A stretch of 64,000 nt of DNA, from positions 1 to 64,000 of the forward strand of contig JAPOXD010000023.1 of NCBI GenBank assembly GCA_026707285.1, in the 5' to 3' direction. The notes under the pieces are model-generated. The model did not search any database, was not told the origin of the DNA, and saw nothing but the letters and a program-made list of their open reading frames with translations. This DNA comes from Chloroflexota bacterium (GTDB taxonomy: Bacteria; Chloroflexota; UBA11872). Positions 9,510 through 54,150 of this stretch are shown here, piece after piece (within the stretch, counting starts at the first letter, position 1; every line of letters begins with the position of its first letter). The position numbers and the translations under genes were made by a program.

Positions 9510-10831
9510 CCCCGCCTGGCCGACTCCGGATCGGCGTCGCGAGCGGAAACATCACGCCCGCGGTAGGCGTCGACCTTTCCGGCTTCAGCCCGCGCATGGG
9601 GTCGGCCCTCGGCGTGCGGGACCCGCTCGAGCTGCATGTCCTGGCAGCAAGCGATGGCGGAACCACCGTGCTGCTGGCGGCGTTCGACCTGGTCGGGCTC
9701 ACGCCGGCGTGGATCGCGCGGACTCGGACACATATCAGCGCGGCGACGGGGATCCCGGCCAGTCATCAAATGTACGCCTGCACCCACGGGCACGGGGGAC
9801 CGGAAACCGGCGTGCTGCCGCCCATGGGCGATCCGGACGACGACTATCTCGAGGAGCTGTCGGCGACCACCGTTGACGTGGCCCAAGCAGCCCTGGAGCG
9901 GCAAGCGCGCGCGGAGCTCGTCATCGGCTTCGGAGCCTCGTTCGCCGGGGTCAACAGACGCTCGCGGGAGGTGGCCCCGGACGGACCAGGTGACGGAGGG
10001 CCCGACGACATCGACTCAACGCTCATTGCGGCGCAAGCGCGCGATGGTGACGGCCGGCCCGTCGTCACGCTGGTGAACTATGGCTGCCACCCCACGAGCA
10101 GCCGCGAACGCATCTTCTCCGCCGACTACCCCGGCCACCTGCGGCGGCGCGTGCAGCTAATCACCGGCGCGCCGTGCATCTTCGTCAACGGAGCCGGCGC
10201 CAACACGAACCTGCGCTTCGCGGATCCCCGAGCGCGCGGCTATGGCGAGGCCCGCAGCCATGGCCACGCACTCGCCCTGACGGCGGTCCGGGCGCTCCAG
10301 GCCGCGCGGCCATCGGCCTCGGCCGCGGTCGCCGCGGCAACGCAAGGGGCGACGCTCGCACACGCGGACCTGCCGAGTGCTGCCGAAGCCCGCGCGATGC
10401 GAACGGCAGGCGAATCGAACGTCGAAGCCGCCGCCAATGACGTGATGCGCCGTCACTACCAGGGCTACGAAGTCGAGCACGCCGAGCGGGTGCTCGCGGC
10501 CCACGGCGACCCGGCGTGGACCGGCCGGCAGCAGGTCGAGCTTCAGGCCCTGCGAATCGGCGACCTGGCCGCCATCGCGACGCCGGTGGAGCTGTTCGCC
10601 GCGGACGGGCAGGCCATTCGGGCCGGGTCACCGGCGCCGGCAACCATCGTGGCCGGATGGAGCAACGGCAACTGGGGCTACCTGCCCACGCGCCGCGTGG
10701 CCGCGCACGGCGGCTACGAAGCCGAAACGGCGCATCCGTGGTACCAACAGCCGGCGGCCTGGACGCCGGAGAGCGGTGACGCGCTGCGCGCCGCGGCGCA
10801 GGCGTCCCTGGCCGGCCTGTTTAGCGCCTAA
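9506..10831 (+). CDS. Neutral/alkaline ceramidase-like hydrolase
   Basis: A 441-residue protein resembling the N-terminal domain of neutral/alkaline non-lysosomal ceramidases. IGVASGNITPAVGVDLSGF near the N terminus, YACTHGHGGPETG with two candidate zinc His residues at about 93-95, NRRSREVAPDG, and VTLVNYGCHPTS fit the family. The usual nucleophile segment around GDVSPN is here FVNGAGANTN, so ceramide hydrolysis is doubtful. The C-terminal immunoglobulin-like domain of true ceramidases is absent. No signal peptide, so it is probably cytosolic. ATG overlaps the hflX stop. Its last 11 bases overlap the convergent recombinase gene. Substrate unknown; many bacteria have such shortened members. 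Confidence 0.8.
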   Translation: MTPPGRLRIGVASGNITPAVGVDLSGFSPRMGSALGVRDPLELHVLAASDGGTTVLLAAFDLVGLTPAWIARTRTHISAATGIPASHQMYACTHGHGGPETGVLPPMGDPDDDYLEELSATTVDVAQAALERQARAELVIGFGASFAGVNRRSREVAPDGPGDGGPDDIDSTLIAAQARDGDGRPVVTLVNYGCHPTSSRERIFSADYPGHLRRRVQLITGAPCIFVNGAGANTNLRFADPRARGYGEARSHGHALALTAVRALQAARPSASAAVAAATQGATLAHADLPSAAEARAMRTAGESNVEAAANDVMRRHYQGYEVEHAERVLAAHGDPAWTGRQQVELQALRIGDLAAIATPVELFAADGQAIRAGSPAPATIVAGWSNGNWGYLPTRRVAAHGGYEAETAHPWYQQPAAWTPESGDALRAAAQASLAGLFSA

Positions 10832-11849
10832 GCTCCTCGGGCGACCGGCGTCGGCGCCGTGCCCGGGCGGAGGCCTCGTCCGCCGGCACGCTGAACCGAT
10901 CGAAGACCTCGCGCAGATGCGCCGTTTCGTAGTGGGCGTAAATCCGCTTGGTCGTATCCGGCGAAGCGTGACCCAGGATGTCCTGCACGTGCGACAGATT
11001 CGCGCCGCGATTGAGCAGCGAGGTGGCCTTGAGGTGACGGAAGCCGTGGGTCGTGGCCGTCACTCCCACCGCCGCCCCGTAGCGCTTGACGATCTTCCAG
11101 ACCGACTGCGGCGATAGGCGGAGGCGTTCGCCGCCGCGGCCGGGATCGCGCGGCGCGCCGCGGTGGCGGATGAAGAGCGGCACGTAGGCGTCGCGCCGCA
11201 GCCCCACGTAAGTGCGCATGGCCTCCCGCGCGTCGTCATCGAAAAAGACCACTCGCTCGCGCCGGCCCTTGCCGGTGATCAGGGCCTGCTGGGCGTGCCC
11301 GTCGTCGACGTCCCGGCGATCGAGTCGTGCCACCTCCGCACGCCGCATGCCGGTGCCATAGAGCACCTGCAGCAGGGCGCGGTCGCGGGCAAAGCGCAGT
11401 CGGGTCTCCTCCCCGGCGTCGGCGGGAATCAGCGACGGCAGCTCGTTCTTGACATAATCCACAATGATCGCCAGCGAATCGTCCACCCGCGGCGTGCGAT
11501 AGCGCGGAGCGGACCGCACGCCGTGCAGCCGCTCCACGGCGCGCTCGATGGACAGCGTCGTCAGCGATCCCTCGCGCAGGCAATGCCGCAGGAACGCGCG
11601 GGCGGCGGCCACATAGGTCTGGATGGTCGCCTCGCGCTCGGGCCCAAGCTCGTCGGCCAGCGCCAGATAGAAGCCCTCGAGCGCGCCGTCGTCCAGTCGA
11701 TCGAGGGTAATCTCCTCGGCCCCGGCCACCTGGCGCGCCCACGCCATAAACCGACGCAGCCCAGTGGCATAGGTGCTCCGCGTCCGCGGGGATTTTGCCC
11801 GCAGACTGTCCAGGAAGCGCTCGGAGGCGGCGTGCAATGTACGGTCCAT
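10821..11849 (-). CDS. Tyrosine recombinase (XerC/D-like integrase)
   Basis: A 342-residue site-specific recombinase with an N-terminal SAM-like core-binding domain (about 1-105) and a C-terminal catalytic domain. The catalytic set is complete: Arg169 in YGTGMRRAEVARL, Lys194 in TGKGRRERVV, His268 and Arg271 in HGFRHLKAT, His294 in LGHASPDTTKR and the nucleophile Tyr304. The ending is very basic (RARRRRRSPEE). The ATG at 11849 is chosen because a good promoter ends 9 bases away; a TTG at 11873 would place the promoter inside the gene. No excisionase, phage or transposon genes adjoin it, so it may be a housekeeping Xer enzyme or a relic of an element. Confidence 0.9.
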   Translation of the reverse strand: MDRTLHAASERFLDSLRAKSPRTRSTYATGLRRFMAWARQVAGAEEITLDRLDDGALEGFYLALADELGPEREATIQTYVAAARAFLRHCLREGSLTTLSIERAVERLHGVRSAPRYRTPRVDDSLAIIVDYVKNELPSLIPADAGEETRLRFARDRALLQVLYGTGMRRAEVARLDRRDVDDGHAQQALITGKGRRERVVFFDDDAREAMRTYVGLRRDAYVPLFIRHRGAPRDPGRGGERLRLSPQSVWKIVKRYGAAVGVTATTHGFRHLKATSLLNRGANLSHVQDILGHASPDTTKRIYAHYETAHLREVFDRFSVPADEASARARRRRRSPEELRR

Positions 11850-11857
11850 AGGCCATG

Positions 11858-11886
11858 ACTTTACATAACGCAATCACAGGTGTCAA
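11858..11886 (-). promoter_or_regulatory. Sigma-70 type promoter of the recombinase gene
   Basis: On the minus strand, TTGACA (11886-11881) is followed after exactly 17 bases by TAAAGT (11863-11858). The -35 is a perfect consensus and the -10 matches four of six. The expected transcript start is within 2-3 bases of the ATG at 11849 and there is no Shine-Dalgarno sequence, which points to a leaderless mRNA. Confidence 0.55.
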
Positions 11887-11926
11887 GTACCCGTTACCGC
11901 CGCCGGTGGATCACTTCGAGTCCGTC

Positions 11927-12014
11927 ATTCCGGCGGAAGCCGGAATCCAGTCCGATTGCTCCGTGGCGGCCGAGGAATGCCGGATCCTGGACCCCGGCCT
12001 TCGCCGGGGTGACG
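11927..12014. repeat. Dispersed short palindromic repeats (CGTCATTCCGGCG type)
   Basis: Two facing copies between the recombinase and the HD gene. 11927-11958 reads as the hairpin unit CGTCATTCCGGCGGAAGCCG followed by GAATCCAGTCCG. 11988-12014 is a diverged unit in the opposite direction (CCCCGGCCTTCGCCGGGG). They belong to the same family as the left ends of the composite elements. Confidence 0.6.
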
Positions 12015-12029: not shown

Positions 12030-12614
12030 TCACGCGTCCTCGAGCAGCCCCCCGGCCTCGGCCACCCGCCAAAACGCGTAGTCGGCGTGATGGACGATCG
12101 TGTTCTCCAGGCTGCGCTCCACAAGCTCGCCCTCCCCGGAGTGGGCGCCCGCCATGTGCGCCACCTCTTCCGGCAGCCCCACCGTCAGGCAGATGTGCAC
12201 GCCGTAGGCCGGGTGACGGATCGACGGACGTCCGGACTTCCGGGGCGCGGCTTGCCAGCGCGCCTGGTTCTCGGGGTCGAACTCCCACGGCTTGCCCACG
12301 TCGTGACACAGCGCGCCGGCGATCAGCAAATCGCGGTCGAGGGGCAGCGCGGGAAACTGCCGCTGCAACTCGTCGCCCAGCAGCATGGCCAGTTGGGTCA
12401 CCCCTCGAATGTGGTCGGCCTGGGTGCCGTTAATGAGCGTCGGCATTCCCGGATTGCCGGACGCCGGGATATCCGCAATGGCGTCGAAGCTGCTCCGGTC
12501 CAGCGCCACGGCCCACGCCTCGACGACCTTCTCGCGCAGCTCCGGGTCGACGATCTCGGCGACTTGCGGCAGCTCGTCCCTCACCTGCTCGCGCTGCTTG
12601 GCGGTAATCGGCAT
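12030..12614 (-). CDS. HD-domain phosphohydrolase family protein
   Basis: A 194-residue protein with an HD metal-binding domain: DHIRGVTQ, GALCHDVGKPW with the His-Asp pair, and IRHPAYGVH and VHHADYA supplying later ligands. Such domains hydrolyse nucleotides or phosphate esters. The ATG at 12614 is used because GAGGGTG lies about 6 bases upstream; a start at 12635 lacks a ribosome site. It stands alone between repeat-rich regions, so the context gives no substrate. It does not look like the larger HD-GYP or RelA types. Confidence 0.8.
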   Translation of the reverse strand: MPITAKQREQVRDELPQVAEIVDPELREKVVEAWAVALDRSSFDAIADIPASGNPGMPTLINGTQADHIRGVTQLAMLLGDELQRQFPALPLDRDLLIAGALCHDVGKPWEFDPENQARWQAAPRKSGRPSIRHPAYGVHICLTVGLPEEVAHMAGAHSGEGELVERSLENTIVHHADYAFWRVAEAGGLLEDA

Positions 12615-12743
12615 GGCACACCCTCGCGGCGGCAATCGATGCAGTGTGCCCCAGCGCGAGAGCGCCCCGCGACATCCCGGCGGCAGGCAGCTTCACTTCC
12701 GTCATTCCCGCAGAGGGAGACTCTTGGGTAGGCCCCTCGTCAT

Positions 12744-12828
12744 TCCGGCGAAAGCCGGAATCCAGTCCGGTCAAGACTGGCGGCGCGCCGGAATCCTGAC
12801 GTAGGGGCGACGCATGCATCGCCCCTAC
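12744..12828. repeat. Composite palindromic repeat element, short form
   Basis: The hairpin unit CGTCATTCCGGCGAAAGCCG at the left is followed 57 bases on by the 28-base near-palindrome at 12801-12828 (half-site GTAGGGGCGACGCA, one mismatch in the other arm). Same order and orientation as the copies at 2514, 53957 and 54608, and the same 57-base unit spacing as 54608-54692. Confidence 0.7.
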
Positions 12829-12951
12829 TACCTTGTGTCGAGGCCTCCGACGGCGGGAATCCATCCCGCAAGAAATCCGCGCGCAAGCCGAGTGCGCAGC
12901 TCGGCCCGCATGTCACCGCTCCATAGTCGCGCTGGCCCTACTGCCGATAGA

Positions 12952-12981
12952 TAGTAGAACTAATACGCATTAGTTCTACTA
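12952..12981. promoter_or_regulatory. Perfect AT-rich 30-base palindrome (operator or recombination site candidate)
   Basis: Two perfect 13-base arms (TAGTAGAACTAAT at 12952-12964 and its complement at 12969-12981) around ACGC. It is sharply AT-rich in a GC-rich setting, is not part of the GC-rich repeat family, and is not followed by a T run, so it is not a terminator. It could bind a dimeric regulator or be a core site for a tyrosine recombinase such as the one at 10821-11849. Nothing in the sequence decides between these. Confidence 0.5.
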
Positions 12982-13216
12982 ATTCCAATCACGAGCGGAT
13001 GGGCCCGGAAGCTGCTGCCCGGTCATGGGCGCACCGCCGGCATTGCACGGACCGTCGAATTCACCCGGGACCACCAGGTCCGGGAATCCACCGCCATCTC
13101 GAGTCCCTACCTGGGGCGCCGGACCAGGCGGCTCCCGGTGTTGTCGGTGAATTCCTCGCGCAGTCACCCGTATCGGAGACTCTTGCGAAAGCCGGCCAAG
13201 CTTAAGGATGACCGGA

Positions 13217-13256
13217 CGAACCCCGTCCGCCCCCAGATTCAATGAAGGGTGGATTC
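13217..13256. repeat. Dispersed repeat, reverse orientation
   Basis: ATTCAATGAAGGGTGGATTC followed by CCGCCTCCGCGGGAATGACG is the reverse complement of the left end of the composite element at 2514-2555, with few changes. No palindromic right end follows within 150 bases. Confidence 0.6.
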
Positions 13257-13411
13257 CCGCCTCCGCGGGAATGACGAGGGATAACGCAAAGGTCTCTATC
13301 GGGCGCGCGCAAGCGGTCGCCTATTCATCACGCGCCATTTCGATCCGTCCGTGTCCGGGCTCGCAACACGCGACGACACCATGATTGTTATGTAAAGCTC
13401 TCGGCCTGTCC

Positions 13412-14662
13412 CTACGAAGCACCCACCAGGCAGCCCACGGCCTCGATCGAACGAAAACGTTGGTCGAAGGCCACGCTGCCGTCGTCTTCGGTCGTGGTCA
13501 GCGTCACGCCCCGCTCGAAGACGGGCTGATTGCCCGCCAAGAAATCGGGCTCGTAGACGTCCCGGTCCACGTACTCGGCGGTGCGGCCGTCGGCCCAGCG
13601 GACTGTATAGATCGTGCGCGGCAACTCGATCGGGCTGGCGTCCGGTCGCCGGAGGCGGTGGATGAGATCTTCGTCGACCGTCACGCCGAGGCCCGGTCCC
13701 TGGGGCACCGGCACGTAGCCATGCTCGACTGCCAACGGCTCGATGAGCAGGTCGTAGGCGTAGGTGTTGAGGCAACTGATCGCCGGCCAGCGCGCCGCCG
13801 GCAGCACCGCGCCCAGGTGCATCGCAAAGGCCGTCGTGATGCCCGTGCCCACCAGCTGGAGCCACAGCGGCATGTTCGCAGCGTCGGCCTGTGCCCCCTG
13901 GTGCAGGCAGCTCGCGGCCCCACCGCTGACGACAAATCCGTCGCACACGCCCTCTTTCACAGCCGTCAAGAACGGCGGCGAATCGAAGTGCATCGCAATC
14001 GGGCGCGGCACGGCCGCCCGCAGGGCGCGGTTCCCGCCCACGTCAGTTTGCGGAATCGGCGTTTCGAATATCGCGACCTTGGGATAGCCCGCCAGCGTCG
14101 CCAGCAGCGGTTGGGCGTGCCCGGCGTCAACGAGCAAACCATTGAAATCCAGGTCCAGCTTCGCGTGCGCGGGCGTTACCTCGCTCACGGCCTCCACCTG
14201 CTCGACGATGTCGAACCACGGCCGTGCCTTCAGCTTGAACGCGGTGTAGCCCGCCTCGATGCCGGCGCGCGCTTCCGCCGCCCAGTCATGCGGCGGCATG
14301 TCGTAGCACCACCAGGCCAGGGGGCAGCGCGCGCACACGGCGGATCCCAAGAGCCGGTGCACCGGGACCCCGAGCGCCTTCCCGGCCACGTCGAATAGCG
14401 CTTGCTGCAGACCGGCCCCGAGCGAGTCGTCCCAGAGCAGGTCGGCCGGATTCGCGCCCATGGCGCGGTCCACGCTCTCGTCGGTCACGACGCCCCAGGT
14501 GTAGTGCGGCAGGGTCTCGCCCCACCCCACGAGCCCCGTGTCAGTGGTAACTTTGCATACTTCGGTAAGGGCCCAATCGGCCAGCCCGCGCCGCATATGG
14601 CGTCCCGCCGTGGGCGTGTGACCGGCGTCGACGACAATTCGCTCGATTCGTGTGATCTGCAT
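13412..14662 (-). CDS. Mandelate racemase/muconate lactonizing (enolase superfamily) enzyme
   Basis: A 416-residue enolase-superfamily protein: N-terminal capping domain with MQITRIERIVVDAG and a C-terminal barrel. Candidate catalytic lysines are in AFKLKARPW (K-x-K), and metal ligands in KLDLDFNG (Asp), AIFETPIPQ (Glu) and IAMHFDSPP (Asp). Members abstract a proton next to a carboxylate, giving sugar-acid dehydratases, racemases or cycloisomerases. The sequence does not fix the substrate; a sugar-acid dehydratase is a guess. ATG at 14662 rather than the in-frame start at 14674 because the protein then begins with the usual MxITxIE. Monocistronic as far as can be seen, divergent from the M23 gene. 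Confidence 0.87.
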   Translation of the reverse strand: MQITRIERIVVDAGHTPTAGRHMRRGLADWALTEVCKVTTDTGLVGWGETLPHYTWGVVTDESVDRAMGANPADLLWDDSLGAGLQQALFDVAGKALGVPVHRLLGSAVCARCPLAWWCYDMPPHDWAAEARAGIEAGYTAFKLKARPWFDIVEQVEAVSEVTPAHAKLDLDFNGLLVDAGHAQPLLATLAGYPKVAIFETPIPQTDVGGNRALRAAVPRPIAMHFDSPPFLTAVKEGVCDGFVVSGGAASCLHQGAQADAANMPLWLQLVGTGITTAFAMHLGAVLPAARWPAISCLNTYAYDLLIEPLAVEHGYVPVPQGPGLGVTVDEDLIHRLRRPDASPIELPRTIYTVRWADGRTAEYVDRDVYEPDFLAGNQPVFERGVTLTTTEDDGSVAFDQRFRSIEAVGCLVGAS

Positions 14663-53956: not shown

Positions 53957-54150
53957 AGTCCGTCATTCCCGCGAACGCGGGAATCCCCCCTTCGTTGAAC
54001 CTGGGAGCGGATTGGGTTCGCCCGATCATCCGCAGGCTTGGCCGAGTCTTGTAGAGGTTTCCCAAGGCGGGAACCTAGCGACCGCCCAACGAACCGGCCC
54101 ACGCGTAGGGGCGACGCATGCGTCGCCCCTACCCCCATACTCAAGGGACT
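53957..54150. repeat. Composite palindromic repeat element, copy 2
   Basis: The left unit CGTCATTCCCGCGAACGCGG followed by GAATCCCCCCTTCGTTGAAC, a diverged middle with CTAGCGACC, and the 28-base perfect palindrome at 54105-54132 followed by CTCAAGGG. It matches the copy at 2514-2701 in order, orientation, spacing and both ends. Confidence 0.75.

Follow-up and report, generated by a model that had tools for sequence, protein, structure and literature searches.

The inverted repeat at positions 12,952-12,981 of the window, the 64,000-nucleotide stretch of Chloroflexota DNA analysed here, is best explained as a dif-type chromosome-dimer resolution site of a Chloroflexota lineage, served by a linked Xer recombinase that is encoded at 10,821-11,849 on the minus strand. 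We put the probability of this reading at about 0.85. The recombinase appears dedicated to the site and would probably be the only enzyme to act there. An earlier note on this DNA had listed a recombination core site among its suggestions, although it did not propose dif itself. That suggestion is now well supported by the conserved pairing of site and recombinase, by a core that the site has in common with dif of Escherichia coli and by concerted changes in the two arms.

The site, a feature without assigned strand, reads TAGTAGAACTAAT-ACGC-ATTAGTTCTACTA. Its arms (12,952-12,964 and 12,969-12,981) are 13 nt long each, 100% complementary and 4 nt apart. On the 11-6-11 layout that the accessible text of PMC5357621 gives for E. 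coli dif, the 28-bp unit runs from 12,953 to 12,980 and reads AGTAGAACTAA-TACGCA-TTAGTTCTACT. A repeat search and the composition of all 30-mers in the window bore out the position, the AT-richness and the mismatch-free 13-base arms given in the earlier note. Its term, a 30-base perfect palindrome, holds for the two perfect 13-bp arms but not for the centre: since ACGC is not self-complementary, the inverted repeat is perfect in its arms but asymmetric at its centre. The AT-richness of the site is equalled by just 22 of the 63,970 30-mers in the window. Perfect 13-bp arms separated by 0-8 nt are found at three places in the window: at the site, which alone is AT-rich, and at the two copies of another palindrome, which is GC-rich. 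None arose in 20 Markov-simulated windows. Within the window, the arm word with up to two mismatches was found in the two arms of the site only (0.01 expected), and with up to one mismatch it occurred nowhere but at the site in the whole of its own genome (3.21 Mb in 61 contigs). This genome holds a single copy of the site, and not the many copies that the earlier note, which had called for a count, named as grounds for refuting its suggestions.

The GC-rich palindrome, GTAGGGGCGACGCATGCGTCGCCCCTAC, is a dispersed, REP-like element with copies at 2,659-2,686 and 54,105-54,132 of the window. A degenerate copy lies at 12,801-12,828, about 120 bp from the site, and look-alikes occur near the recombinase in genomes G197 and G034. 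Repeats of the CGTCATTCCGGCGAAAGCCGGAATCCA type are found around the site in both orientations (11,920-12,010, 12,700-12,770 and 13,250-13,280). Read as RNA, the site strand folds well (z -4.40), as any perfect inverted repeat does. We rejected a terminator, as the palindrome gave no terminator-like score; an AT-rich stem that is conserved letter for letter also speaks against one.

The recombinase gene is taken to start with the ATG of MDRTLHAA and encodes the complete R-K-H-R-H-Y set. An alternative upstream TTG start would move the 5' end of the gene to 11,873 and give a 350-aa frame (10,821-11,873). The gene coordinates agree with the distance of roughly 1.1 kb between site and recombinase gene reported before. 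A gene for an HD-domain protein (12,030-12,614, minus strand) lies between the recombinase and the site, and an enolase-superfamily (MR_MLE_C) gene (13,412-14,662, minus strand) lies on the other side of the site; we consider both to be neighbours outside the system. Of the 19 family genomes, 18 contain a recombinase ortholog (68-98% identity), which is split across two contigs in G010 and G013. In 17 of these 18 genomes, ortholog and site are on one contig, about 0.4-1.1 kb apart, with the site on the 5' side of the gene. In the remaining genome (G001), recombinase and site each lie near a contig end. The neighbouring tyrosine recombinase is thus the conserved partner of the site in this family.

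The site is as conserved as its pairing. We scanned 84,980 genomes, one per species, for the exact arms around any centre, in a collection from which records of the site's own genome were possibly left out. The scan returned 11 contigs with one site each, all of them labelled as Chloroflexi or Chloroflexota MAGs. When up to three mismatches were allowed, 17 of 101 relatives' genomes contained the site, each exactly once, and all 17 belong to the 19 genomes of the family; the 82 relatives' genomes outside it had no match at this threshold. A shorter pattern of 16 fixed bases with up to two mismatches placed the site in 18 of the 19 family genomes. The one family genome without it, G016, is 76% complete and also lacks a recombinase ortholog. 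G010, which the strict pattern had missed, carries TTATAGAACTAAT-N4-ATTAGTTCTATAA 0.4 kb from a recombinase fragment. At up to two mismatches, the 16-base pattern also gave chance-like matches in G021 (five), G019 (five more), G027 (two) and G011 (one more), and the control matches of this pattern fell in two of 41 genomes (G001 and G019).

When the sites of 17 genomes were aligned with the recombinase on the right, leaving out G001 for its unknown orientation, the two arms had mean identities of 98% and 96%, compared with 72% for the centre and 53% for each flank of 60 bp. Conservation of the site while its flanks change, a check proposed in the earlier note, is therefore what we observed. 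Within the family, then, the site has the marks of a dif-type element: a short, AT-rich inverted repeat (about 28-31 bp) whose arms lie close together, present once per chromosome and conserved while the surrounding sequence diverges. Among the sites L014-L030 and L127, the 4-nt centre has the opposite orientation with respect to the recombinase and the flanks in some close relatives. Its variants are ACGC or GCGT and ACAC or GTGT, and the change from ACGC to GCGT could equally consist of two transitions. Since the polarity of the centre varies with respect to both the recombinase and the skew, it gives no direction.

The pairing of site and recombinase is weaker in the next family, where all five genomes contain a recombinase ortholog (51-53% identity). 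A perfect site is found beside the gene in two of them: G020 and G023 carry TACTAGATATAAT-N4-ATTATATCTAGTA, also given as CTACTAGATATAAT-N4-ATTATATCTAGTAG, 1.4-1.5 kb from the ortholog. G019 also has a perfect site (ATTAGACATAAT-CATT-ATTATGTCTAAT), which lies 361 kb from the recombinase. G021 has an imperfect candidate with two mismatches at 1.85 kb from the ortholog, and no site was found in G022, where the recombinase gene is near a contig end. Absence of the site despite the recombinase, which had been named as a finding against the earlier suggestions, hence does not occur in the family (18 of 18 genomes with the recombinase have the site) and applies in part to the next.

Relatives of the recombinase extend further. 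A profile of 13 orthologs, applied to 400 Chloroflexota genomes at a threshold of E 1e-45, matched 69 of them: 18 in the family, five in the next family and 46 in others. For 20 of these 46, hand-chosen and mostly high scorers (although G119 among them scores only 223 bits), we took the 2.3 kb around the 5' end of the gene. Exact TAAT-N4-ATTA was present in half of these 20 regions and absent from the other ten, and it was found in none of 400 simulated regions (20 per region). By a weighted half-site score with 15 shuffles each, G127 and G239 also rose above their shuffles. The arms of the ten other-family sites are imperfect, with 8-11 of 13 positions alike. Outer arm positions are alike within a site in 55 of 90 cases, versus 43% between genomes, a value reached by 13 of 10,000 permutations. 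Some of the ten genomes are related, so the permutations treat them as more independent than they are. In G018, one arm is of the type of the window's family and the other of the type of the next family. That the arms change together suggests that one protein reads both.

The core of the site is that of a known dif. In E. coli MG1655, the stretch beside hipA, which we take to be dif, reads ATTTAACATAATATACATTATGCGCACC. Its 12-base core, TAATATACATTA, consists of the same 12 bases as the core of the site in G013, and TAAT-N4-ATTA is thereby common to both. The same 8 kb of E. coli contains a second TAAT-N4-ATTA, so in a genome of lower GC content the core by itself lacks specificity. We took G006, which consists of one contig of 3,002,743 bases, as a circular chromosome and sampled 1.78 Mb of it (L031-L090, L158-L197). 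In this sampled part, the site is the sole TAAT-N4-ATTA.

The recombinase itself has the Pfam domains Phage_integrase and an N-terminal SAM-like domain. The catalytic residues R-K-H-R-H-Y, in columns numbered after the residues of E. coli XerD, are present in all six orthologs compared, as in Xer tyrosine recombinases generally. The protein scored 144.9 bits with the XerC equivalog TIGR02224 (cut-off 335.15), 136 bits with the XerD equivalog TIGR02225 (cut-off 329.6), 135 bits with the XerA model NF040815 (cut-off 220) and 78.5 bits with the XerS model NF003462 (cut-off 267). Such NCBIfam scores below the cut-offs indicate that the recombinase is Xer-like, yet by these curated cut-offs none of XerC, XerD, XerA or XerS. 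In a tree of 16 rows, whose root and several forks are uncertain, the six orthologs grouped together (100/100) and separately from Xer2, a XerD-like paralog, and from E. coli XerC and XerD.

Structural comparison is supportive of the Xer-type reading. The predicted structure has a mean pLDDT of 78.4 and a pTM of 0.64, and among solved structures the archaeal Xer 4a8e comes first in sequence as well as in fold comparison (Z 16.2, rmsd 11.5, 256 aligned). The next fold matches are tied, at Z 13.9 for the integrase of phage Brujita, 13.8 for XerA and 13.5 for XerH. XerH (5jjv) was also matched by sequence (E 3.6e-7; fold Z 13.5 with rmsd 7.8 over 259 aligned). Matches by sequence and fold together include XerA, XerD and XerH. 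The fold of Cre was matched as well, and the rmsd of the Xer, Brujita and Cre fold matches is large.

The chromosomal position of the site was approached through G006, where it lies at 2.44 Mb. Cumulative GC skew reaches its global minimum in the 5-kb bin that contains the site and has a broad maximum from 0.83 to 0.94 Mb. The sign of the skew is opposite to the usual one and, taken by itself, would mark the site as an origin. On the other side of the chromosome, dnaA is at 799.7 kb; close to it, at 799.4 kb, three copies of TTATCCACA (DnaA boxes) are packed into 50 bases, and the sampled sequence holds no second cluster of this kind. The 16S gene (minus strand) maps to 783.7 kb, and exact parS sequences occur just twice, at 839 and 850 kb. 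These positions suggest that the origin of G006 is most likely at 0.80-0.85 Mb and that the site is on the terminus side, about 91-142 kb away from the point diametrically opposite the DnaA boxes and parS. With an origin there, the sign of the skew is inverted (a C-rich leading strand), and both 16S and the S12 gene (2,488 kb, G006:C1:2488170, minus strand) are co-directional with replication.

In a second genome, G011, the skew flips at the site from -0.108 on the left to +0.104 on the right, with the same polarity as in G006. No skew switch was seen at the site in the window, G005, G002 (own genus) or G018. The terminus position is therefore supported in one chromosome and, locally, in a second. 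Gene direction in G006 has no genome-wide bias (411 of 831 genes point towards the site), and the best two-point model of gene direction is weak (net 79 of 831) and opposite in sense to that expected of a terminus. A search of G006 for KOPS-like words returned strand-biased 6-8-mers of which the top ones are nearly all C-rich and follow the skew, and none was separable from it. We found no paper on GC skew in Chloroflexi in the open literature. Three of five genomes have the gene for ribosomal protein S12 at a distance of 32-46 kb from the site and oriented towards it (G006:C1:2488170, G005:C13:247506 and G002:C35:204641), an uncommon neighbour for a terminus; G011 and G018 have S12 and the site on separate contigs.

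If the GC skew had its usual sign, the site would be an origin-side element, either an origin or a partition site. The cumulative skew minimum at the site, normally the mark of the origin, and the nearby S12 gene fit this explanation, which we nevertheless consider very improbable: dnaA, the triple DnaA-box cluster, both exact parS and 16S all lie opposite the site in G006, and replication starting at the site would run head-on into both 16S and S12. Equally slim are the chances that the linked recombinase is the integrase of a mobile element and that the site serves this element for attachment or resolution. Here a tyrosine recombinase does adjoin its own site, and the genome contains seven further PF00589 matches. 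However, the site is present in nearly every genome of the family together with a recombinase at 68-98% identity, the genome lacks a second copy, and viral contigs lack the exact 24-base pattern TAGAACTAAT-N4-ATTAGTTCTA. A 17-base partial pattern was found in 21 viral contigs, which by a rough estimate is near chance for the size of the collection. The earlier note had also suggested a regulator's operator. An operator for the recombinase or for a neighbouring gene would fit the position of the site, which is 5' of the recombinase in all 17 family genomes with both on one contig. But its distance varies (about 0.4-1.1 kb in the family, up to 1.5 kb in the next family and 361 kb in G019), the HD-domain gene intervenes in the window, and no promoter-like pair was scored in 12,600-13,420, all of which makes an operator hardly credible.

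The remaining alternative is a sub-case of the dif reading, in which two recombinases share the site as XerC and XerD do, the linked recombinase on one arm and Xer2 on the other. G006 has just two PF00589 matches, the linked recombinase and Xer2, the core is of the E. coli type, and Xer2 is 37-40% identical to E. coli XerD and reaches 273 of the XerD cut-off of 329.6. Against this, identical arms that change together would need two proteins following in step, and only the linked recombinase adjoins the site. Moreover, the Xer2 sequences (L131:1438-2355; L128, L132, L133 and L134) keep R, H, R, H and Y but have no lysine in the E. coli XerD K172 column in any of the five compared (gap, D, D, S and N). 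Xer2 of G016 has a lysine one column earlier, in a hairpin where the alignment is uncertain. From its sequence, Xer2 is possibly a non-catalytic Xer, and we regard a two-recombinase dif as unlikely.

With a single recombinase at a dif-type site, two protomers would bind the two identical arms, and two sites on a dimeric chromosome would synapse in a tetramer. The catalytic tyrosine would then cut the strands where the central 6 bp (T-ACGC-A) meet the arms, and exchange would yield monomers. Activation would probably come from the FtsK translocase with its gamma domain, which was over the cut-off in all five genomes tested (in G006 just barely). The same recombinase would occupy all four positions as a homotetramer, which is most likely because the arms are identical and change together between lineages. 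More tentatively, and at somewhat less than even odds, we propose that a single-recombinase dif/Xer lineage extends across many Chloroflexota families. In such a lineage, the module would be inherited, arms and specificity would drift together, and the ancestral XerD partner would have become the lysine-less paralog. The site would have reached perfect symmetry in the window's order, and its symmetry would leave the orientation of the centre free.

A linked module of site and recombinase would be a candidate terminus marker for these uncultured Chloroflexota. It would also supply a set of naturally occurring recombinase-site pairs, with specificities that seem to have changed in concert, in which to study how Xer systems with one recombinase and with two interconvert. 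Kono et al. gave three Chloroflexi dif sites, all predicted and all from Dehalococcoides, in the accessible text of PMC3025954. We found no other Chloroflexi dif predictions in the open literature, with most subscription papers outside this search.

Compared with known systems, the site resembles E. coli dif with XerC and XerD in that it fits the 28-bp 11-6-11 layout, has the TAAT-N4-ATTA core, is AT-rich and single-copy, and occurs where FtsK gamma is encoded. Unlike in E. coli, where 7 of 13 arm positions are alike, its arms are identical, and the recombinase gene is linked to the site and scores far below the XerC and XerD cut-offs. Archaeal XerA/dif is likewise a single-recombinase system, and the best structure match is the archaeal Xer 4a8e, but at 135 bits the window recombinase stays below the XerA cut-off of 220. 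A single recombinase is also common to difSL/XerS and difH/XerH. difSL is next to xerS according to the accessible text of PMC5357621, and difH adjoins xerH according to that of PMC9765430, although the arms of these sites are described as imperfect (PMC5357621, in part), and the XerS model gives the window recombinase 78.5 against a cut-off of 267. By published description, and not by sequence, the site is also like Legionella dif with XerL. The accessible part of PMC9765430 reports a single recombinase and a terminus-proximal, AT-rich site of about 30 bp with uninterrupted inverted-repeat arms, of 10 and 12 bp in Legionella. For L. pneumophila, however, the same account puts more than 400 kb between dif and xerL, whereas site and recombinase are linked here.
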